Of a DNA stretch of 64,000 nucleotides, positions 5,158 to 23,663 are shown one piece after another. A program made the translations under genes and the position numbers. Source of the DNA: Rhodoplanes serenus (GTDB taxonomy: Bacteria; Pseudomonadota; Alphaproteobacteria; Rhizobiales; Xanthobacteraceae); contig WNKV01000003.1 in the NCBI GenBank assembly GCA_009720755.1, positions 1 through 64,000 on the forward strand. Direction: 5' to 3'. A model generated the notes under the pieces. That model worked only from the letters and a program-made list of their open reading frames with translations. It searched no databases and was not told the DNA's origin. Position 1 is the first letter of the stretch, and each line of letters opens with the position of its first letter.

Positions 5158-6471
5158 TCAGCCGGCGCGCACCGCCACACGGGCAGCTACCCGGACCGGC
5201 ACCGGCTCCGGCTTGGCGAAGGCGAACAGGCCGACATCGATGATGCCGAGCCGGAACCCGGTCTCGCAATAGGCGAGGTAGTACTCCCACAGCCGGCGGA
5301 AGCGATCGTCGAAGCCGAGCGGCGCGATCGCCGGCCAGGCGGCGAGGAAGCGTCGGCGCCACTCGGCGAGCGTGCGGGCATAGCTCTCGGCGAACGCCGT
5401 GTGGGTGACGAGCGCGAGGCCGGCCCGGCGAGCATGCTCCACCATCATGTCGCGGGTCGGCAGCATGCCGCCCGGGAACACGTAACGCTGGATGAAGTCC
5501 GGGTTGCGCCGGTAGCGGTCGAAGCGCGACGTCTCGATGGTGATGGCCTGGAGCACCGCGGTGCCGCCGGCGCGCAGCCGCGCCGCCAGCGTCTCGAAAT
5601 AGATCGGCCAGTACTTCTCGCCGACCGCCTCGATCATCTCGATGGAGACGATGCGGTCGAATGTGCCCTCGGTGTCGCGATAATCCTCGAGCCGCAGATC
5701 GCACGCCTCGGCGAGGCCGGCGGCGGCGACGCGCTCGCGGGCGAATGCGAGCTGCTCGGCCGACAGCGTCAGCCCGGTGACGCGGCAGCCCTCCCGGGCG
5801 AGACGCTCGGCGAGCGCGCCCCAGCCGCAGCCGATCTCCAGCACATGCTCGCCGCCGGTCACGCCGAGCGTCGCCACGATGTGGTCCAGCTTGATCTGCT
5901 GCGCCTCGTCGAGCGACTGGTCGTCTTCCGTGTAGATCGCCGACGAGTAGGTCATGCTGCGATCGAGCCAGGCGGCATAGAAGGCGTTGCCGAGATCGTA
6001 ATGGGCCGCGATGTTGCGGCGGCTGCCGCGCCTGGTGTTGGCGCGCACCGCGTGGCGGATGCGATCCAGCAGCCGCTCGGTGCGCAGGCCCGCATAGACG
6101 TCGGTCAGCCCGGCATCGTTCTCGGAGAACAGAGCGAGCAGCGCCGGCAGGTCGGGGGTCGACCAGTCGCCGTCCATGTAGGCTTCGGCGAAGCCGAGAT
6201 CGCCGCGCCACACCACCCGCCACAAGGTCCGCCAGCGGTGCAGCACCCAGGTGGCGGCGTGCCCCGGCCGGCGGCCGCGATGGGCGATGCGCACGCCGTT
6301 CGGCAGCTCGACCGTCAGGGTGCCGACATCGAGCCGGCGCAGCACCCGGGCGAGCAGGCGGTGGGTCAGCTTGCGCCGGCGCAGCACGGCGGCCGGCTCG
6401 GCGGCGGGTGCCGCCGGCGCATGGGAGGGCGCCTCGCAGGAGGACAAGTCGCAGGAGGACAGGTGAGTCAT
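5158..6471 (-). CDS. Cyclopropane-fatty-acyl-phospholipid synthase-like methyltransferase
   Basis: This 437-residue SAM-dependent enzyme is of the Cfa type, which adds a methylene or methyl group to unsaturated acyl chains in membrane phospholipids. The N-terminal lipid-binding part includes GDLGFAEAYMDGDW. The methyltransferase core has HYDLGNAFYAAWLD, YSSAIY, the SAM loop VLEIGCGWGALAE, and IVSIEMIEAVGEKYW with the active-site glutamate. FPGGMLPT and YYLAYCETGFR are also typical. The ATG at 6471 overlaps the stop of the DUF1365 gene (ATGA), so it is chosen over upstream alternatives. It is last in a three-gene unit behind a candidate ECF promoter. Confidence 0.9.
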   Translation of the reverse strand: MTHLSSCDLSSCEAPSHAPAAPAAEPAAVLRRRKLTHRLLARVLRRLDVGTLTVELPNGVRIAHRGRRPGHAATWVLHRWRTLWRVVWRGDLGFAEAYMDGDWSTPDLPALLALFSENDAGLTDVYAGLRTERLLDRIRHAVRANTRRGSRRNIAAHYDLGNAFYAAWLDRSMTYSSAIYTEDDQSLDEAQQIKLDHIVATLGVTGGEHVLEIGCGWGALAERLAREGCRVTGLTLSAEQLAFARERVAAAGLAEACDLRLEDYRDTEGTFDRIVSIEMIEAVGEKYWPIYFETLAARLRAGGTAVLQAITIETSRFDRYRRNPDFIQRYVFPGGMLPTRDMMVEHARRAGLALVTHTAFAESYARTLAEWRRRFLAAWPAIAPLGFDDRFRRLWEYYLAYCETGFRLGIIDVGLFAFAKPEPVPVRVAARVAVRAG

Positions 6472-7244
6472 GATCCGCTCCGCACGATGGTCACGGGGCG
6501 CGTCGGCGGGGCCGGGCGGGGCCGTAGCCCGATGCCCTTGCGCCACAGCTTCAACGCCTCCCAATGAATCGCCGCGATCACCTTGGCGGTGACCAGCGGG
6601 TGAAGCAGGAACGTCTTCAGCAGCGCGCCGTCGCCGAGCTCGCGGCGATGCCCGGTGAGCGCCGCGACGATCACCGGCTTGCCGGCCTTGTCGGCCCGGA
6701 TCGCCACGGCGACCGAGCGGCCCGGCGGTGCGATGCGGAACTCGTATCGCAGGTCCATATCCATGAACGGCGAGACGTAGAACAGCTTGTCACACGTCTG
6801 GCGAACGGCGCCACTGCGCTCCGGTTCCGCCGGAATCACGTAGGAGTGGCGCTCGCCGAACGTGTTGGTCACCTCGTGGACCACCGCCGCCAGCGTGCCG
6901 TCGGCGCGTCGGCAGAAGTAGACGCTCAGCGGGTTGAAGACGTAGCCCAGCACCCGGGGCATGCAGAGAATCTGCACCGATCCGCCGGTGATGTCGACGC
7001 CGGCCTCGGCCAGCATGCGGTCGATCTGGGCGCGCAGCGGCTCGTCGGTGCCGGCGCCATGGTCGGCATCGCGGAACGTGAACAGGTTGAAGCCGTCGCG
7101 CGAAAACAGGCGCAGCCGCGCCGCGAGGGCGTCGATCTCGGCGAGATCGAGCAGCAGCCAGAAGCAGCGGTAGCGCAACGCGTGTGACCGCGGCGCGAGG
7201 CGGCGATGAACCACGGCACCCGTGTAGATGGCCGAGACGGTCAT
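6468..7244 (-). CDS. DUF1365 family protein
   Basis: A 258-residue protein recognised as DUF1365 from AIYTGAVVHRRLAPRSHALRYRCFWLLLDL, GYVFNPLSVYFCRR, VVHEVTNTFGERHSY and KLFYVSPFMDMDLRYEFR. The family has no firmly known reaction but nearly always sits between an FAD-dependent amine-oxidase-like gene and a Cfa-like gene, as here. A role in fatty-acyl modification of membrane lipids is therefore inferred. The start at 7244 overlaps the stop of the upstream gene (ATGA), and the stop overlaps the start of the downstream gene (ATGA), so the three genes are tightly coupled. Confidence 0.88.
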   Translation of the reverse strand: MTVSAIYTGAVVHRRLAPRSHALRYRCFWLLLDLAEIDALAARLRLFSRDGFNLFTFRDADHGAGTDEPLRAQIDRMLAEAGVDITGGSVQILCMPRVLGYVFNPLSVYFCRRADGTLAAVVHEVTNTFGERHSYVIPAEPERSGAVRQTCDKLFYVSPFMDMDLRYEFRIAPPGRSVAVAIRADKAGKPVIVAALTGHRRELGDGALLKTFLLHPLVTAKVIAAIHWEALKLWRKGIGLRPRPAPPTRPVTIVRSGS

Positions 7245-8605
7245 GCCGGCAACGTCGGCTGCGGCACGCGCGGGCGCGCCGGATCGAGCGGGATGCGGCC
7301 GCTCTCGTTGGGCACCGACCACGGGCGGCGCACGCCGCCGATCGCCTCGGCGACCGCGAGCCCCGCCTGCAATCCGTCCTCGTGGAAGCCGGCGCCGAAA
7401 TGGGCGCCGCAGAACCAGGTGTTGCGCACGCCCTGGAGCGACCAGAGCTGGCGCTGCGCCGCGTGGGCGGCGAGATCGAACAGCGGATGCTCGTACATCT
7501 CGGTGTGGATCAGGCTGCCGGCGCGCGGCGGTCGCGGCGGATTCAGCGTCACGAACAGCGGTGTCTCGGCCGGCAGGTCTTGCAGCCGATTCATCCAGTA
7601 CGTGACGGTGACGCGGGGCCGATCATCGGGGCCGGTGCGGGTCCCGATCACGTTCCAGCTCGACCACGCGGCGCGCCGCTTGGGCATGAGCGTATCGTCG
7701 GCGTGGAGAACGGCGATATTGCGGCTGTACCGGAACGCGCCCAGCAAGGCGCGCTCGTCGAGGCTCGGATCGGCCAGCATGGCGAGCGCCTGATCGGCAT
7801 GCGTCGCCACCACGACGTGATCGAAGCGGTGCGCCTCGCCGGTCTGGTCGGTGACGACGACGCCGTTCGGCTCGCGGCGCAGGTGGGCGACGCCGCGGTC
7901 GAGCCGGATGCGATCGGCGAAGTCGCGCGTCAGGCGCTCCACATAGCTGGCGCTGCCGCCCGTCACGGTGCGCCACACCGGCCGGTCGCGCAGCTTCAGC
8001 AGGCCGTGGTTGTCGTGGAAGCGGATGAACGCGGCGGCCGGATAGTCCAGCATCTCGGAAGGCGCCGCCGACCAGATGGCGCCTGCCATCGGCAGCAGGT
8101 GGTCGTCGCGGAAGGCGCGCGAGTAGCCGTTGTGGCGCAGATAGTCGCCGAGCGTCACATGCGCCTCGTCGAGCCCGCCGAGATCGCGGGGCGCCGCACG
8201 GTAGAAGCGCAGCACGCCGGCGAGCATCGACCAGAAGCGCGGCCGCAGCAGGTTGCGCGGCTGCGCCAGCAGCGCCCCGAAGCTGCCGCCGCCGTATTCG
8301 AGGGCACCGTCGTCGAGCGACACCGACAGCGACATCTCGGTCGGCTGCGTCTGCACGCCGAGATGCGCGAACAGCGCCGTCAGGTTCGGATAGGTCTGCT
8401 CGTTGTAGACGATGAACCCGGTGTCGACCGGCACGCCGCCATGGGCCGGCGGGGTGCGCACCGTGTTGGAGTGGCCGCCGGCGCGGTCGGCCCGCTCGAA
8501 CACCGTCACGTCGTGGCGGCGCGCCAGCAGCCAGGCCGCCGACAGGCCCGATATGCCGGTGCCGATCACCGCGATCTTCAGGCGATCGCCGCCCGTCTCC
8601 TGCAT
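7241..8605 (-). CDS. FAD-dependent oxidoreductase, flavin amine-oxidase-like
   Basis: The 454-residue product begins with a Rossmann dinucleotide-binding motif, IAVIGTGISGLSAAWLLA, followed by the acid/Arg pair VFERADRAGGHSNTV. It ends with a second FAD block, WFCGAHFGAGFHEDGLQAGLAVAEAI. This type is often annotated as an NAD/FAD-binding protein linked to cyclopropane or cyclopropene fatty acid formation. In Rhodobacter, relatives beside DUF1365 and Cfa-like genes belong to the RpoE/ChrR singlet-oxygen regulon and are tied to modified fatty acids. A good Shine-Dalgarno (GGGGGGCGAGG) precedes the ATG at 8605. It heads the minus-strand unit and diverges from the sigma factor gene. Confidence 0.88.
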   Translation of the reverse strand: MQETGGDRLKIAVIGTGISGLSAAWLLARRHDVTVFERADRAGGHSNTVRTPPAHGGVPVDTGFIVYNEQTYPNLTALFAHLGVQTQPTEMSLSVSLDDGALEYGGGSFGALLAQPRNLLRPRFWSMLAGVLRFYRAAPRDLGGLDEAHVTLGDYLRHNGYSRAFRDDHLLPMAGAIWSAAPSEMLDYPAAAFIRFHDNHGLLKLRDRPVWRTVTGGSASYVERLTRDFADRIRLDRGVAHLRREPNGVVVTDQTGEAHRFDHVVVATHADQALAMLADPSLDERALLGAFRYSRNIAVLHADDTLMPKRRAAWSSWNVIGTRTGPDDRPRVTVTYWMNRLQDLPAETPLFVTLNPPRPPRAGSLIHTEMYEHPLFDLAAHAAQRQLWSLQGVRNTWFCGAHFGAGFHEDGLQAGLAVAEAIGGVRRPWSVPNESGRIPLDPARPRVPQPTLPA

Positions 8606-8660: not shown

Positions 8661-8689
8661 GTGTACGGCCGGACAATACCGTTAGATCA
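8661..8689 (-). promoter_or_regulatory. Candidate ECF-sigma (RpoE/ChrR-type) promoter for the FAD/DUF1365/cfa unit
   Basis: On the minus strand TGATCT (8689-8684) is followed by exactly 17 bases and GTACAC (8666-8661). TGATC(C/T) is the -35 element of singlet-oxygen ECF sigma factors. Spacing and the GTA start of the -10 match two other candidates in this window. The predicted leader is about 50 bases. Confidence 0.55.
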
Positions 8690-8728
8690 CCGCCGGTCCG
8701 CGGCGCCGGCTCACCGGCGGCGGGGGAC

Positions 8729-8757
8729 TGATCCAAGCCCGGCGGCGCGCCGTAGTG
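8729..8757 (+). promoter_or_regulatory. Candidate autoregulatory ECF-sigma promoter
   Basis: TGATCC (8729-8734), 17 bases, then GTAGTG (8752-8757), upstream of the sigma factor gene. It fits the usual autoregulation of ECF-sigma/anti-sigma operons and has the same geometry as the sites at 8661-8689 and 12720-12748. It implies a leader of roughly 120 bases to the ATG at 8883. Confidence 0.55.
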
Positions 8758-8882
8758 GGGGCATGCTTGTCCGGACCACCATACCCGTTAAGACTCCCTC
8801 CAGGGCTGCGCTCGCGGTCCTGCGGCAGCCGGGCGTGCTGCCGCGGGCACCGCCCGTGCGGCCGCGCCGGTCGGGGGAGGGG

Positions 8883-9455
8883 ATGGCGATCATCGAAAGG
8901 ACGTCGGACGGCGTGCAGGATTTCGATCGGCTGATCCAGGCCATCGCGACCCGCCAGGACCGCGCGGCGTTTGCGGCCCTGTTCGGGCATTATGCGCCAC
9001 GCGTGAAGGCGTTCCTGATGCGGTCCGGCACCGCCGCCGATCTGGCCGAGGAGCTGGCCCAGGAGACGCTGGTGACGGTGTGGCGGAAAGCCGCGCTGTT
9101 CGATCCGACCCGGGCCGGCGCCTCTGCCTGGATTTTCGCCATCGCCCGCAACCTGCGCATCGATGCGGCGCGGCGGCAGCGCCGCGAGGCCCTGCATGCC
9201 CAGGCCGAGGAGCCGGAGCCCGAGCCGGTGGCGGCGCCCGACCACGCCGTGGTGACGGCGGAGCGCGAGCAGCGGGTGCGCGCCGCGCTCGATCATCTGC
9301 CCGGCGAGCAGCGCCGGATCGTCGAACTGTCGTTCTTCGAGGGCCGGGCGCATGGCGACATCGCCGGCCTCCTCGACATTCCGCTCGGAACCGTCAAGTC
9401 GCGGCTGCGTCTTGCCATGAACCGCATGCGGACTCTGCTGGGTGACCTGACATGA
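8883..9455 (+). CDS. ECF-type RNA polymerase sigma factor of the RpoE/ChrR group
   Basis: A 190-residue sigma factor. Region 2 spans about residues 20-85 (AAFAALFGHYAPRVKAFLMRSG ... LAQETLVTVWRKAALFD ... ASAWIFAIARNLRIDAARR). Region 4 (LPGEQRRIVELSFFEG ... IPLGTVKSRLRLAMNRMR) carries the DNA-binding helix-turn-helix. The downstream gene, overlapping by ATGA (9452-9455), is a ChrR-type anti-sigma, so this should be a singlet-oxygen-type ECF sigma. The ATG at 8883 is chosen because it begins just before region 2 and follows GGGGGAGGGG; the frame is open further upstream but that part overlaps the candidate promoter. Confidence 0.92.
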   Translation: MAIIERTSDGVQDFDRLIQAIATRQDRAAFAALFGHYAPRVKAFLMRSGTAADLAEELAQETLVTVWRKAALFDPTRAGASAWIFAIARNLRIDAARRQRREALHAQAEEPEPEPVAAPDHAVVTAEREQRVRAALDHLPGEQRRIVELSFFEGRAHGDIAGLLDIPLGTVKSRLRLAMNRMRTLLGDLT

Positions 9456-10150
9456 CCTTGTCCCACCATCCGAGCGACGCGACGCTCGCCGCCTTCGCGG
9501 CCGGCACGCTGGACGAAGGCCGCATGCTGGTGGTGGCGGCGCATCTCGCCGCCTGCCCGAGCTGCCGGCGTGCCGTCCGCCTGCTGGAGCTGACCGGCGG
9601 CGTGCTGCTCGACGACGTCGCCCCCGCCGAGATCGCGGCCGGCGGTCTCGACCGCGTGCTCGCCCGTCTCGACGCACCAGAGGCCGTGCCGGCATCGGCG
9701 CCTGTCCGGCGGCAGCCGGTGGACACGGCGGAGCGTCCTGCCGACGGCGGTGCCGCGGCCGACATCCGCGGCCTGCTGCCCGCCCATGCGCGGCTCCTCG
9801 CCGGCTACGAGCTCGGCCCGTGGCGCTGGGTCGGTCCGGGCGTCTGGTGGCGCCAGGTCGACGCACCGACGCTGCCGGGCGGGCGGGTGTTCCTGCTCAA
9901 GGCGGCGGCCGGCACCACGCTGCCCGACCACACCCACACCGGCACCGAGCTGACCTGCGTGCTCACCGGGGCGTTCCGCCACGAGCACGGCCGCTTCGGC
10001 CCGGGCGATGTCGACGAGGCCGACGACGAGGTCGATCACTCGCCGGTGGTGGAGCCGGGCGTCGAGTGCGTGTGCCTCGTCGCCATGCAGGGACGGCTGC
10101 GGCTCAACGGGCTTATCGGCCGGGTGCTCCAGCCCTTCGTGCGTCTCTAG
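9452..10150 (+). CDS. chrR: ChrR-type zinc anti-sigma factor with C-terminal cupin domain
   Basis: This 232-residue protein should hold the ECF sigma inactive until singlet oxygen or a related stress appears. The N-terminal anti-sigma domain has its zinc ligands at His6, His31, Cys35 and Cys38, the same numbering as in Rhodobacter sphaeroides ChrR. The C-terminal cupin has a second metal set, His160, His162, Glu166 and His196, with the same internal spacing as the Rhodobacter cupin ligands (HTHTGTE, then a His 30 residues later). In Rhodobacter the cupin is needed for singlet-oxygen release of the sigma factor. It is coupled to the sigma gene by ATGA. Confidence 0.93.
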   Translation: MTLSHHPSDATLAAFAAGTLDEGRMLVVAAHLAACPSCRRAVRLLELTGGVLLDDVAPAEIAAGGLDRVLARLDAPEAVPASAPVRRQPVDTAERPADGGAAADIRGLLPAHARLLAGYELGPWRWVGPGVWWRQVDAPTLPGGRVFLLKAAAGTTLPDHTHTGTELTCVLTGAFRHEHGRFGPGDVDEADDEVDHSPVVEPGVECVCLVAMQGRLRLNGLIGRVLQPFVRL

Positions 10151-10165
10151 GGCGGAGCGGCGGCC

Positions 10166-11008
10166 ATGCTGGTGCTCTCGCTCGTCGTCGCGCTGCTGGT
10201 CGCGGCGGTGGCGTTCTCCATGGTGATGTCGATCGCCACCGTGGTGGAGCGCCGCACCGGCAATGCCGGCTGGGTCGATACGTTCTGGACCTTCGGGCTC
10301 GGCCTCGTCGGTGCCGGCGCGGCGCTGGCGCCGCTCGGCGCGGCACCGAGCGGCCGCCAGCTCCTGGTGGCGGTGCTGGTCGCCGCGTGGTCGCTGCGGC
10401 TCGGCAGCCACATCGCGGCGCGTGCGCGGGCGAGCCACGACGATCCGCGCTACGCGGCGCTGCGCCAGCAGTGGGGCCGCGACGCGCCGCGCCGGATGGC
10501 GCTGTTCCTCCAGATCCAGGTGCTGGTCAGCCTGCCGATGATCGCGGCGGCGATTCTCGCGGCTCACAATCCGTCGCCCGGCCTCGGCCCGCAGGATCTC
10601 CTCGGCGCCCTTCTGGTGGTCGCCGGCATCGCCGGCGAGGCGGTGGCGGATCGCCAGCTCCGCGCCTTCCGGGCGGCCGGCGCCGGCGTCGGCACCGGCA
10701 GGGGCCGCATCTGCGACGACGGCCTGTGGGGCTGGTCGCGCCATCCCAACTACTTCTTCGAGTGGCTGACCTGGGTCGGCGTCGCGGTGATCGCCCTCGA
10801 TGTCTCCGGCGGCTACTGGATCGGCTGGCTCGCCGTCCTCGGCCCCGCCTGCATGTACTGGCTCCTCGTCCACGTCTCCGGCATTCCGCCGCTGGAGGAG
10901 CACATGCTGGCCCGCCACGGCGCCGCCTTCCGGGCCCATCAGGCGCGCACCAGCGCGTTCTTTCCGCGTCCGCCCCGTCCCGCCCCCGTCACGGAAGAGA
11001 CCCGATGA
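10166..11008 (+). CDS. DUF1295 family membrane protein (steroid 5-alpha-reductase-like fold)
   Basis: A 280-residue multi-helix membrane protein with the DUF1295 signature GLWGWSRHPNYFFEWLTWVG in its C-terminal half, WVDTFWTFG near the N-terminus and GIPPLEEHMLARHG near the end. The family resembles isoprenylcysteine methyltransferases and steroid reductases, which act on lipids in the membrane and bind a nucleotide cofactor. The gene is 15 bases after chrR and overlaps the following methyltransferase start by ATGA. Context suggests a role in fatty-acyl or lipid modification under the ECF sigma factor; the reaction is unknown. Confidence 0.88.
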   Translation: MLVLSLVVALLVAAVAFSMVMSIATVVERRTGNAGWVDTFWTFGLGLVGAGAALAPLGAAPSGRQLLVAVLVAAWSLRLGSHIAARARASHDDPRYAALRQQWGRDAPRRMALFLQIQVLVSLPMIAAAILAAHNPSPGLGPQDLLGALLVVAGIAGEAVADRQLRAFRAAGAGVGTGRGRICDDGLWGWSRHPNYFFEWLTWVGVAVIALDVSGGYWIGWLAVLGPACMYWLLVHVSGIPPLEEHMLARHGAAFRAHQARTSAFFPRPPRPAPVTEETR

Positions 11009-12036
11009 GCCTGATCGCCGCCGCCATCGGAGGCGCCGAGCGCCTGCCGATTCCCGATCTCGTCACCCGCACCGGCATCGCCATGCTGGTCGGCAAGACG
11101 CGCCAGCGCCTCCGCGACACCGATCCGGAGATCGACCGCCGCTTCGCCGCCGCCATGGCGGAGCACCCGATCGCGCTCCACACCGGCGAGGCTAACGCCC
11201 AGCACTACGAGGTGCCGGCGGCGTTCTTCGATCTGGTTCTGGGACCGCGGCGAAAATACTCGTGCGGCCTGTATCCGGGGGGCGGCGAGACGCTGGCCGA
11301 GGCGGAGGAGCTGGCGCTCGCCGCGACGGTGGAGAACGCCGGGCTCGCCGACGGCCAGTCGATCCTGGAGCTCGGCTGCGGCTGGGGCTCGCTGTCGCTG
11401 TTCATGGCCGAGCGGTTTCCGGGGGCCCGCATCACCGCGGTGTCGAACTCGCGTTCGCAGCGCGCCTTCATCGAGGCGCAGGCGGCGGCGTGCGGGCTGC
11501 GCAACCTGACGGTGATCACCGCCGACATGAACGCCTTCGTGCCGGCCGCGCGGTTCGACCGCGTGGTGTCGGTGGAGATGTTCGAGCACATGGCCAACTG
11601 GCGGGCGCTGCTCGGCCGCGTGCGCGGCTGGCTCGCCCCGGACGGCCGGCTGTTCCTGCACGTCTTCAGCCACCGCGCCGCGCCGTATCGGTTCGATCAT
11701 CGCGACCCCGCCGACTGGATCGCCCGCCACTTCTTCACCGGCGGCATCATGCCGAGCCACGGGCTGGTGCGGTCGTTCGACGATCTCTTTTCGGTCGAGC
11801 AGGAGTGGCGGTGGAACGGCGTCCACTACGCCCGCACGGCCGAGGACTGGCTCGCCAATTTCGACCGCAACCGCGACCGCATCGACCCGATCCTGGCCGA
11901 GGTCTACGGCGCCGACGCCGCCCTGTGGGCGCGCCGCTGGCGGCTGTTCTTCCTGGCGACCGCCGGCCTGTTCGGCCACGCCGCCGGCGAGGAGTGGGGC
12001 GTCAGCCATTATCGCCTGGCGCCGACGGCCGGCTGA
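11005..12036 (+). CDS. Second Cfa-like SAM-dependent fatty-acyl methyltransferase
   Basis: 343 residues with the Cfa/Mycolic-acid methyltransferase core: HYEVPAAFFDLVLGPRRKYSCGLY, SAM loop ILELGCGWGSLSLF, ITAVSNSRSQRAFI, VVSVEMFEHMANW, and FFTGGIMPSH. It lacks the long N-terminal lipid-binding part of the 5158-6471 enzyme and is clearly divergent from it, so the island encodes two different methyltransferases. In purple bacteria, ChrR-regulated methyltransferases of this kind make 11-methyl and methylated furan fatty acids (UfaM, FufM); which one this is cannot be said. It is last of the sigma-led operon and is followed by a strong terminator. Confidence 0.88.
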   Translation: MSLIAAAIGGAERLPIPDLVTRTGIAMLVGKTRQRLRDTDPEIDRRFAAAMAEHPIALHTGEANAQHYEVPAAFFDLVLGPRRKYSCGLYPGGGETLAEAEELALAATVENAGLADGQSILELGCGWGSLSLFMAERFPGARITAVSNSRSQRAFIEAQAAACGLRNLTVITADMNAFVPAARFDRVVSVEMFEHMANWRALLGRVRGWLAPDGRLFLHVFSHRAAPYRFDHRDPADWIARHFFTGGIMPSHGLVRSFDDLFSVEQEWRWNGVHYARTAEDWLANFDRNRDRIDPILAEVYGADAALWARRWRLFFLATAGLFGHAAGEEWGVSHYRLAPTAG

Positions 12037-12074
12037 ACGGGCGAGCCTGCGTCCGCCGACAGGCGATCCAACAG

Positions 12075-12104
12075 AAAGGCCACGACCGCGCGGTCGTGGC
12101 CTTT
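12075..12104 (+). terminator. Perfect 30-base palindrome, terminator of the sigma/chrR operon
   Basis: AAAGGCCACGACCGC is followed at once by its exact reverse complement, ending CCTTT. It lies 38 bases after the second methyltransferase stop. Being fully symmetrical it could act on both strands, but the DUF2177 gene on the other strand ends 170 bases further on. Confidence 0.8.
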
Positions 12105-12273
12105 CGTCTGATGACGCTGATCGAGGATGGAGAGTTCGACCCGGCCGGGACGACGTCCCGAGAGGGTCACGGCCCCGGCCTCGTCCCGCCTGCAGCGGCG
12201 TACAGCGACGAAGCCAGGGCCGTGAACACGGCCGGGATGGCTGATCCGGCCGTGTAGCGATGAGGAAGTCGGT

Positions 12274-12687
12274 TCAGGCCGCGATCGTTCCGCGCACCGC
12301 GTTGGCGGCGAGATAACCGCAGGCCGCCGCGATGCCCGACAGAAGGCCGCCCCACACGATGTCGGCGACGGTGAGTTGCAGCGTCCAGTTGCGCAGCGTC
12401 GCGTAGTTGGTGAGGTCGTAGGTGGCGTAGGCGAGCGCCCCGAACAGCGCGCCCAGCGCGATCGCCGGAACGAGGCCGCCGCCGCGCAGCGCCGGCACGA
12501 TGGCGAACACCACGAGGCCGATCGGGAAGAGCAGGTAGAACACCACGGCGGGCATCATGCGCGGCGCCTCCAGCAGAATGTCGCCGAGGGTCGGTCGGTA
12601 GAGCAGGCCGCTCATGGTGTAGAGCCACACGGCATCGATGATCACGAAGGACACCAGAGCGGCGGCATAGGAGGCGACGTAGGGCAC
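12274..12687 (-). CDS. DUF2177 family membrane protein
   Basis: A 137-residue protein with four hydrophobic helices, recognised as DUF2177 from [33 protein letters not shown] and [23 protein letters not shown]. The function is unknown. DUF2177 genes recur beside ECF-sigma/ChrR loci. Here it is convergent with the methyltransferase operon and has its own upstream copy of the same promoter pattern, so it is probably part of the regulon. The ATG at 12687 lies about 26 bases after the predicted transcription start. Confidence 0.87.
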
Positions 12688-12719
12688 GAGACGATCCTGT
12701 CGAACGGGGTTGTCTCGCT

Positions 12720-12748
12720 TAATACGCCGATACCGGCCGGGTGGATCA
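12720..12748 (-). promoter_or_regulatory. Candidate ECF-sigma promoter for DUF2177
   Basis: On the minus strand TGATCC (12748-12743), 17 bases, GTATTA (12725-12720), placed for a short leader to the ATG at 12687. It is the third site with the same -35, spacing and GTA start of the -10 as those at 8661-8689 and 8729-8757. Confidence 0.6.
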
Positions 12749-12916
12749 CCGGCGCCGCCCCGTGACGTCCGGACGCAGCTTCGCGCCAGCAGCGGGGCCG
12801 CGGCGCCGGCGTGCCACGGGTTCGCCAGCGTCTCGACCGGCGTCGGCCGCGACGGTCCTATGATCCGGCGACGGCTTTCCGTCGTATCCGCTCCGCTCTA
12901 TACGAGAGGAGACGAC

Positions 12917-13549
12917 ATGACCCCGGCCGTGCAGGTGATCGACACCATGGCGAAGCGGAAGAAGGACGCCGGACGTCCGCGAATCGAGCGGCCGTCGCGC
13001 GCCGAGGTGGAGGCGGCGTTCCGCACCATCCTGCGCTGGACCGGCGACGATCCCGATCGCGAGGGATTGCTGGAGACGCCGGCGCGGGCGGCGCGCGCCT
13101 ACGAGGAGTTCTTCCGCGGCTACGACGAGGACCCGGCCGCCATCCTGCGCAAGACCTTCGAGGAGACCGGCGGCTACGACGAGATGGTGGTGCTGCGCGG
13201 CGTGCGCTTCGAGAGCCACTGCGAGCACCACATCGTGCCGATCATCGGCCGCGCCTGGGTCGCCTATGTGCCGAACGGCCGCGTGGTCGGCATCTCGAAG
13301 CTGGCGCGGCTCGTCGAGGTCTATGCCAAGCGGCTTCAGATCCAGGAGAAGATGACGGCTCAGATCGCCGACACCATCCAGGAGGTGCTGGAGCCGCAGG
13401 GCGTCGCCGTGGTGATCAAGGCGCAGCACCACTGCATGACGACGCGCGGCGTCCACAAGCACGACACCGACATGGTGACCAGCCGGATGACCGGCGTGTT
13501 CCGCGACAACACCGCGACGCGCCAGGAATTCCTCTCGCTGATCGACTGA
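12917..13549 (+). CDS. folE: GTP cyclohydrolase I
   Basis: FolE turns GTP into dihydroneopterin triphosphate, the entry step to tetrahydrofolate and also to queuosine precursors. The 210-residue product has the zinc and active-site blocks [21 protein letters not shown] and [20 protein letters not shown], with [20 protein letters not shown] between them. The ATG at 12917 follows a good Shine-Dalgarno (GAGAGGAG); the frame is open upstream without homology. A terminator follows. Other folate genes in the window, thyA and folA, are distant. Confidence 0.95.
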
Positions 13550-22901: not shown

Positions 22902-23663
22902 ATGCCGACGGGTCCGTTCGAGACGCTGACCTCGGCTCCGCTCCAGGTCGCGGTCCTCGATTCCGATGGGACCATCCGCGACATCAACGGCGCTTGGCGT
23001 GCCTTCGTGGCCGCCATGGACATCGATCCGCTTCAGGCCGGGATCGGGGCACGGTTCCTCGCCTGCTGCGCGCCCGACCAGGCGAGCGGGCTCGCCGACG
23101 TCATCGCCGGCCGCTGCGACGTGTTCACCTCGGTGTGCCGCTGCGAGGGGCGGGCGGCCTCCGGCTGCTGGATGCTGATGCTGGCGGTTCCGCGCTCCGC
23201 GGCACCGCCACGGCGCATCGCGGTGATCCGGTTCGATCTCTCCGCCGTGCTGCCGTTCGACCCGGGTAATGCGGCGCTGCGCGCCGCCCATCATCCCGAG
23301 GTGCTGGCCGCCGACACCACCGACGCGATCGTGCGGGCCGTCGAGCAGGCGCTCGCGCGTCTCGCCGGCCCGCGGGCGAGCGGGCTGTCCGCCGACGCTG
23401 CCGCCGCGGTGCCGCGCGGGATCGCCGCCACGGTGGTGCCGGCGTCGCTGCCCCGGCGTCAGCGCCAGGTGCTGGCACTGCTGGGCGAGGGGATGAGCAA
23501 CGCCCAGATCGCCGACACGCTGGGCATCTCCATGAACACCGCCAAGCTGCATGTCTCGGCGGTTCTGCGCCGGCTCGGGCTCGACAACCGTATGCAGGCG
23601 GTGGCGCTCGGCGCCCGCCTGCATGGTGAGCGCGCGCTGGTGCCGGCCCTCGGGGCCGAGTAG
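22902..23663 (+). CDS. LuxR-type transcriptional regulator with PAS-like N-terminal domain (copy 1)
   Basis: 253 residues. The C-terminal LuxR/FixJ-type helix-turn-helix is clear: RRQRQVLALLGEGMSNAQIADTLG then ISMNTAKLHVSAVLRRLGLD. The N-terminal half (VAVLDSDGTIRDINGAWRAF ...) resembles a PAS-type sensor with several cysteines (CC, CRC) that could bind a cofactor. There is no receiver domain, so it is not a classical response regulator. The ATG at 22902 is chosen because MPTxxxFETL is shared with the downstream paralogue. It has its own operator-like repeat. Confidence 0.8.
   Translation: MPTGPFETLTSAPLQVAVLDSDGTIRDINGAWRAFVAAMDIDPLQAGIGARFLACCAPDQASGLADVIAGRCDVFTSVCRCEGRAASGCWMLMLAVPRSAAPPRRIAVIRFDLSAVLPFDPGNAALRAAHHPEVLAADTTDAIVRAVEQALARLAGPRASGLSADAAAAVPRGIAATVVPASLPRRQRQVLALLGEGMSNAQIADTLGISMNTAKLHVSAVLRRLGLDNRMQAVALGARLHGERALVPALGAE

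Follow-up and report, generated by a model that had tools for sequence, protein, structure and literature searches.

How far does the regulon of an RpoE-ChrR pair extend around and beyond its own operon? The question is raised by a locus of Rhodoplanes serenus (assembly GCA_009720755.1) in the first 64,000 nucleotides of contig WNKV01000003.1, a stretch that is referred to as a whole as the window (contig C33 of the 5.5-Mb window genome, G000). Here, the genes for a sigma factor of the extracytoplasmic function (ECF) type, group ECF11, and for its ChrR anti-sigma factor lie beside predicted genes of the furan-fatty-acid pathway. Our answer, to which we give a probability of about 0.9, is that the locus holds the RpoE-ChrR (ECF11) singlet-oxygen regulon in its Rhodoplanes form and that this regulon reaches beyond the locus. 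An earlier inspection of the window (the sequence-only reading) had predicted a self-contained regulon of an ECF sigma factor and ChrR, with eight genes or more; the number of genes is well supported by genome comparison, amounting to nine genes under four promoters when folE is included, and the self-contained nature is the part that has to be given up.

The evidence that carries this answer is a promoter element found ahead of four putative transcription units, as follows.

8664..8689, minus strand: putative ufaD-ufaO-ufaM promoter, with -35 TGATCT (8684-8689) and -10 CGTA (8664-8667)
8729..8754, plus strand: putative promoter of the sigma-chrR-DUF1295-methyltransferase operon, an exact match, divergent from the ufaD promoter
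12723..12748, minus strand: putative DUF2177 promoter, an exact pattern match
12861..12886, plus strand: putative folE promoter, the fourth site, an exact match 30 bases 5' of the folE ATG

The first three had been described in the sequence-only reading as TGATCY-N17-GTA; they are exact and in the places given there, with ranges that ran 3 bases past the GTA, and the fourth had been overlooked. This pattern has 4 matches in the 64 kb compared to 0.18 ± 0.41 expected, and none of 100 shuffles gave 4. As the GTA is preceded by C at all four window sites, the element is TGATCY-N16-CGTA, and the -10 is better written as CGTA with a spacer of 16. In this form it equals the published ECF11/ChrR consensus: TGATCC-N16-CGTA was obtained by chromatin immunoprecipitation sequencing for PSPTO_1043, an ECF11-type sigma factor of Pseudomonas syringae (PMC5507510), and TGATCC and CGTA elements are described for the RpoE2 promoters of Shewanella, with two mapped starts (PMC4336711). 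The ufaD site here reads TGATCT instead of TGATCC. The four exact sites span 4.2 kb, one ahead of a gene each, with CGTA-to-start-codon distances of 58 (ufaD), 128 (sigma), 35 (DUF2177) and 30 bases (folE). Two further sites with one mismatch are present in the window at 23224 and 60110, both on the plus strand. The ufaD and sigma promoters stand back to back (8689-8729) with 39 bases between them, and in several relatives the gap between the -35 elements is of a few bases.

The nine genes behind these promoters were assigned to families as follows.

5158..6471, minus strand: UfaM/Cfa-type fatty-acyl methyltransferase (CMAS E 4e-85; best PDB matches are cyclopropane fatty acid (CFA) synthases)
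6468..7244, minus strand: UfaO-type protein, DUF1365 (PF07103 E 9e-82)
7241..8605, minus strand: UfaD-type flavin amine oxidase of the R. sphaeroides RSP1091 type (PF01593; assigned by family)
8883..9455, plus strand: ECF sigma factor of RpoE (ECF11) type (Pfam Sigma70_r2/r4_2; PDB 2q1z_A)
9452..10150, plus strand: ChrR anti-sigma factor with zinc anti-sigma and cupin-like domains (TIGR02451, Cupin_7, 2z2s_B, zinc ligands)
10166..11008, plus strand: DUF1295 membrane protein, steroid-reductase-like (PF06966 E 4e-57, PF02544 E 2e-5)
11005..12036, plus strand: S-adenosylmethionine-dependent methyltransferase of coclaurine-N-methyltransferase/FufM type (CMAS domain; PDB 6gkv)
12274..12687, minus strand: DUF2177 membrane protein, GTG start (PF09945 E 8e-41)
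12917..13549, plus strand: second GTP cyclohydrolase I, a folE paralogue (TIGR00063 227.6 bits, cutoff 181.6)

The best PDB chain for the sigma protein was 2q1z_A, RpoE of R. sphaeroides (E 2e-42), followed by SigK (E 1.5e-20). Its ChrR partner passed the TIGR02451 subfamily (200 bits, cutoff 124.5) and scored 211.9 for the equivalog NF051881, below the cutoff of 300; it aligned best to the R. sphaeroides ChrR structures 2z2s/2q1z (2z2s_B E 2e-39). All eight residues proposed as its zinc ligands (H6/H31/C35/C38) and cupin set (H160/H162/E166/H196) are present. Judged by these matches, the pair is a sigma factor and zinc anti-sigma factor of the RpoE-ChrR type, with four units predicted to be preceded by an ECF11 promoter. 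For the DUF1295 protein there was no PDB sequence match at E 0.1. Another folE copy of the window genome (G000:C1:29809) is 51% identical to the one in the locus.

Conservation was followed in 60 related genomes, 31 of which were classed as ChrR-positive (match at E <=1e-15); the weak matches in G007 and G055 were counted as ChrR-negative. Promoters were tallied at 20 ChrR loci (L053-L072) from 19 genomes of the order, the higher-scoring among the 33 genomes with a ChrR match; G044 was skipped, and L073-L075 (on the same contigs as L053-L055) and L076 were left out. The element was present ahead of ufaD in all 17 measurable loci (15 exact, 2 with one mismatch), ahead of sigma in 17 of the 19 measured (14 exact, 3 with one mismatch) and ahead of DUF2177 in 13 of 16 (10 exact, 3 with one mismatch); at the remaining three loci, DUF2177 comes after a same-strand folE or chrR gene. 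Other genera also have the sigma, ufaD and DUF2177 promoters, and all four locus promoters are exact in the four ChrR-positive Rhodoplanes (the window genome plus G001, G002 and G004). Between orthologous promoters of these four genomes the 10 specified bases are 95-100% identical, compared to 42-62% for the 16-base spacers; the identity of the element is partly built in because the sites were picked by exact pattern. The 20 bases 3' of CGTA are also kept (sigma 80%, folE 72%). Genome G017 has two ChrR loci, and the copy at L065, which has its own sigma gene, does not have the motif ahead of that gene.

The element also follows the presence of the regulator. ChrR and UfaD co-occur in the 60 genomes (both in 27, only one of them in 4 and 4, neither in 25; Fisher P 1e-8). 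In a scan of 30 ufaD loci, 2 of which were dropped for short upstream sequence and 28 scored over 300 bases upstream, the element was found in 19 of 24 loci from ChrR-positive genomes (16 exact, 3 with one mismatch) and in none of 4 from ChrR-negative ones. Similarly, 6 of 17 folE loci in ChrR-positive genomes are preceded by an exact element and 0 of 13 in ChrR-negative genomes (30 folE loci in the 60 genomes). There are two ChrR-less Rhodoplanes, G003 and G005; the latter is 58% complete and little informative, so that G003 (99% complete) is the best test. This genome gave no ChrR match at E 0.001 and no UfaD match at E 1e-60, and no element was detected at up to 2 mismatches in the 300 bases upstream of its folE (82% identical) or bchO (70%) genes.

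The genome-wide scan with TGATCY-N17-GTA suggested in the sequence-only reading returned 22 sites in the window genome, 18 of them with CGTA. These 18 sites with the N16 spacer compare to 2 and 6 with the false spacers N19 and N13, which have the same frame offset as the true one. Pooling the four ChrR-positive Rhodoplanes gave 72 exact N16 sites versus 22 and 27 with false spacers; the corresponding figures were 372 versus 286 and 261 for the 31 ChrR-positive genomes, and 273 versus 284 and 269 for the 29 ChrR-negative ones. From these counts, the excess of sites is clear in Rhodoplanes and weak elsewhere. A control with the reversed pattern (0 matches) was set aside because the reversed word includes CTAG. 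This tetranucleotide is believed to be rare in such genomes.

Several of these sites lie outside the locus and show that the sequence-only interpretation, right in kind and with its site observation now confirmed and extended, was wrong in taking the regulon as self-contained: conserved exact sites are present at bchO, at a MASE7-type gene and possibly at a suf operon, and a hydrolase homologue has a site of its own. An exact TGATCC-N16-CGTA lies 58 bases ahead of bchO (G000:C11:127818-127843, minus strand), in the photosynthesis gene cluster, and is exact in all four ChrR-positive Rhodoplanes, with diverged spacers. The identity of BchO is given by the equivalog TIGR03056 (315.6 bits, cutoff 172.55), and its gene is flanked by an fbp-like gene and by crtI/crtB-like genes, with bchD- and bchI-like genes near (named by eye); an open frame of 171 residues lies between bchO and crtI. 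No exact or one-mismatch element was found at 15 other BchO-like loci, which include second Rhodoplanes copies and seven loci of six ChrR-positive genomes from outside Rhodoplanes, so that the bchO promoter appears as a genus-level feature. The site ahead of the gene for a MASE7-type membrane protein (G000:C33:332210-332235, plus strand) is common to G001 and G004 (3 of the 4 ChrR-positive Rhodoplanes), and that located 22 bases ahead of an IscS-type gene (G000:C33:67312-67337, plus strand) is common to G002 (2 of 4); the IscS-type gene heads what looks like a suf operon, its neighbours being named by eye. A weaker case is the site ahead of the gene for a small His-rich protein, in 2 of the 4.

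In G021, G026, G035 and G050, chrR and DUF1295 are separated by an alpha/beta hydrolase gene that is missing from this position in the window genome. A homologue (51-55% identical) is encoded on contig C13 with its own exact element just upstream (G000:C13:11279-11304, minus strand; L009, one of the 10 sites without a cross-genome match above score 80). Should the two be the same gene, it would have departed from the operon and kept or gained a promoter. Other shared sites were judged weak: L012/L106 (surrounding DNA alike, 94%), L008/L094 (99.9% identical), L004/L084/L125 (motif within a predicted peptidase gene) and L011/L081 (alignment offsets not corresponding). Two more sets are not in the window genome and were set aside, namely L088/L102 and the ubiG site L077/L107/L116, which has identical spacers and is perhaps conserved for another reason. 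The motif was also seen ahead of the rhodoquinone methyltransferase gene rquA in G001 and G004 (2 of the 4 ChrR-positive Rhodoplanes) and ahead of an open frame of 39 residues, membrane-peptide-like, in G001, G002 and G004; the latter is not among the exact sites of the window genome.

What would such a regulon do? In R. sphaeroides, ChrR binds the sigma factor, singlet oxygen or organic peroxide leads to the loss of ChrR, and the freed sigma transcribes its own operon and defence genes; moreover, singlet oxygen destroys furan fatty acids, whose synthesis genes are needed for ChrR turnover (PMC6852236). By analogy, ChrR of Rhodoplanes would keep its sigma factor inactive until ChrR was lost in response to organic peroxides or to light in the presence of oxygen (singlet oxygen); the free sigma would then transcribe ufaD-ufaO-ufaM, DUF2177, the second folE and its own operon. 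From membrane vaccenate, UfaM, UfaD and UfaO would produce a furan fatty acid that would react with singlet oxygen and participate in ChrR turnover; its second methyl group would come from the FufM-type enzyme. The anatomy of the locus fits this proposed route from singlet oxygen through ChrR loss to lipid-protection genes, and the regulon would extend past the locus. Its clearest target there is bchO, of the photosynthesis gene cluster, whose role, at a guess, would be the handling of bacteriochlorophyll under stress. As for folE, the GTP cyclohydrolase gene folE2 belongs to the RpoE regulon of R. sphaeroides and is induced there and in R. capsulatus (PMC7074977), so that a supply of pterin or folate seems to be a repeated need of the response.

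The lipid part of the scheme depends on the assignment of two sets of genes. The UfaM, UfaD and UfaO families are encoded together in the left unit, an assignment made at family level, and this unit is thus read as the predicted UfaD-UfaO-UfaM furan-fatty-acid pathway. In R. sphaeroides as well as R. palustris, a furan fatty acid is produced by these three proteins, and UfaO includes DUF1365 (PMC7380195); UfaD corresponds to RSP1091, whose counterpart in P. syringae carries the annotation flavin amine oxidase (PMC5507510, PMC7380195). The methyltransferase that closes the sigma operon matched coclaurine N-methyltransferase 6gkv at E 1e-57 versus E 5e-22 for the best CFA synthase in the PDB, the opposite preference to that of the UfaM-type protein, for which CFA synthases are best. 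A second Cfa as the last gene of this operon was rejected, as its closest structure is coclaurine N-methyltransferase and not CFA synthase. The FufM-like protein of Arabidopsis presumably belongs to the coclaurine N-methyltransferase branch. Because of this structural match and of the likeness between the Arabidopsis protein and FufM (38% identical; PMC10940516), the methyltransferase gene that ends the sigma operon is read as FufM-type and is a candidate for the second furan methylation. It is 28% identical to the UfaM-type protein of the window, which resembles the 26% published for FufM (RPA0924) and UfaM (PMC7380195), a likeness to RPA0924 that is drawn from published figures only.

Comparison with known systems places the regulator in a familiar type with an enlarged target set. 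The Rhodoplanes locus shares with R. sphaeroides (Cereibacter) the homologous sigma and ChrR, the conserved zinc ligands, a promoter ahead of sigma itself, ufaD/ufaO/ufaM-type genes and a GTP cyclohydrolase target (there folE2, RSP_1852; PMC7074977). It differs in that ufaD-ufaO-ufaM form one unit adjoining sigma-chrR, the operon gains DUF1295 and the FufM-type methyltransferase, DUF2177 and the second folE are added, and there is a conserved site at bchO. Promoter consensus, spacing and cfa-type targets are common to PSPTO_1043/1042 of P. syringae and RpoE2-ChrR of Shewanella (PMC5507510, PMC4336711), as is a flavin amine oxidase target in the case of P. syringae (PMC5507510); however, the photolyase and short-chain dehydrogenase members of those regulons are not among the nine annotated locus genes of Rhodoplanes. 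R. palustris has all four furan enzyme families (RPA2569-2571, and fufM RPA0924; PMC7380195), with fufM apart from the ufa genes by locus numbers, whereas the FufM-type gene of Rhodoplanes closes the sigma-chrR operon.

A further likeness is to an alga. Table 5 of the study on SAK1 in Chlamydomonas gives the genes that need SAK1 for their induction by singlet oxygen, ordered by induction, and genes for CFA1, CFA2, DUF1365, DUF2177 and DUF1295 proteins, all strongly induced, are within its first 25 rows; according to its authors, 37 Table 5 genes are in the top tenth (PMC4067076). CFA2 is also labelled there as coclaurine N-methyltransferase, the branch of the Rhodoplanes FufM-type protein. That the algal and Rhodoplanes proteins are alike is taken from the published annotation alone, and that study reports no ECF/ChrR regulator (PMC4067076). 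The common induction of CFA genes is pointed out in a later review, which also mentions a search for furan-type modification in the alga (PMC8491031). A literature search that had most subscription journals outside its range returned no paper linking DUF1295 or DUF2177 to ChrR or furan lipids. We tentatively propose, at slightly less than even odds, that UfaM, UfaD, UfaO, the FufM-type enzyme, DUF1295 and DUF2177 may make up a module for the defence of membrane lipids against singlet oxygen that purple bacteria and green algae have in common, nearly complete in this locus, and that in Rhodoplanes the same sigma may drive bchO, wiring an oxygen alarm directly to pigment metabolism.

Could these matches be an artefact of chance or composition, in a GC-rich genome with many TGATC-like words? 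The spacer controls lead one to expect about 4 to 8 exact sites in the whole genome, and a number of results weigh against a regulon as we describe it. In the window genome, the other spacer lengths between 6 and 30 give a mean of 8.4 sites versus 18 for the true one, an excess of about twofold (Poisson P = 0.003); many ChrR-positive genomes outside Rhodoplanes are without a genome-wide excess (Mann-Whitney P 0.02 overall); the ChrR-negative G003 has 6 N16 sites versus 2 and 1; 10 of the 22 window-genome sites are without cross-genome support (no match above score 80); and the element is missing ahead of sigma in 2 of 19 ChrR loci and ahead of ufaD in 5 of 24 loci of ChrR-positive genomes. However, the four clustered window sites each precede a gene, and in other genera sites are again found at equivalent positions, with drifting spacers, a footprint that already contradicts chance, which we consider to have next to no probability. 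A narrower control, in which sigma-ChrR acts only on its own operon and the ufa unit, and the DUF2177 and folE matches are due to chance or to another regulator, agrees with the lack of an own motif for DUF2177 in 3 of 16 loci and with the exact folE promoter in only 6 of 17 ChrR-positive loci. Nevertheless, both sites are exact in all four ChrR-positive Rhodoplanes despite diverged spacers, at the three loci where DUF2177 has no motif of its own the gene is preceded by folE or chrR in the same orientation, folE of G003 has no match at up to 2 mismatches and none of the 13 ChrR-negative folE loci an exact one, and Chlamydomonas has a DUF2177 gene among those induced by singlet oxygen (PMC4067076, Table 5), all of which makes such a restricted regulon very improbable.

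Another alternative overlaps with our reading and differs solely in the signal: an ECF11 regulon that responds mainly to organic peroxides, metals or envelope damage in nature, singlet oxygen being incidental. Against it, Rhodoplanes is a phototrophic genus, the genome carries a bch/crt-like gene cluster (named by eye), and the bchO promoter links the regulon to the photosynthesis gene cluster. The published systems speak on both sides, as sigma-E of R. sphaeroides also answers tert-butyl hydroperoxide and such systems are found in non-phototrophs too, while furan-lipid genes are needed for the singlet-oxygen response of R. sphaeroides (PMC6852236); in Stenotrophomonas one such system acts in superoxide tolerance (PMC11832516). 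In our view, a main signal other than singlet oxygen is rather unlikely.

The singlet-oxygen regulon described here is therefore of a regulator type already known, with a target set richer and wider than in known systems. It offers an ECF11 regulon that is compact and open to testing, with the furan-fatty-acid pathway at a single locus, and predicts that DUF1295 and DUF2177, families of unknown function, would be under sigma-ChrR regulation, and that a direct sigma-ChrR promoter would lie within a cluster of photosynthesis genes. The families that it shares with the genes of Chlamydomonas responding most strongly to singlet oxygen give a hint of where the function of DUF1295 and DUF2177 may be sought.

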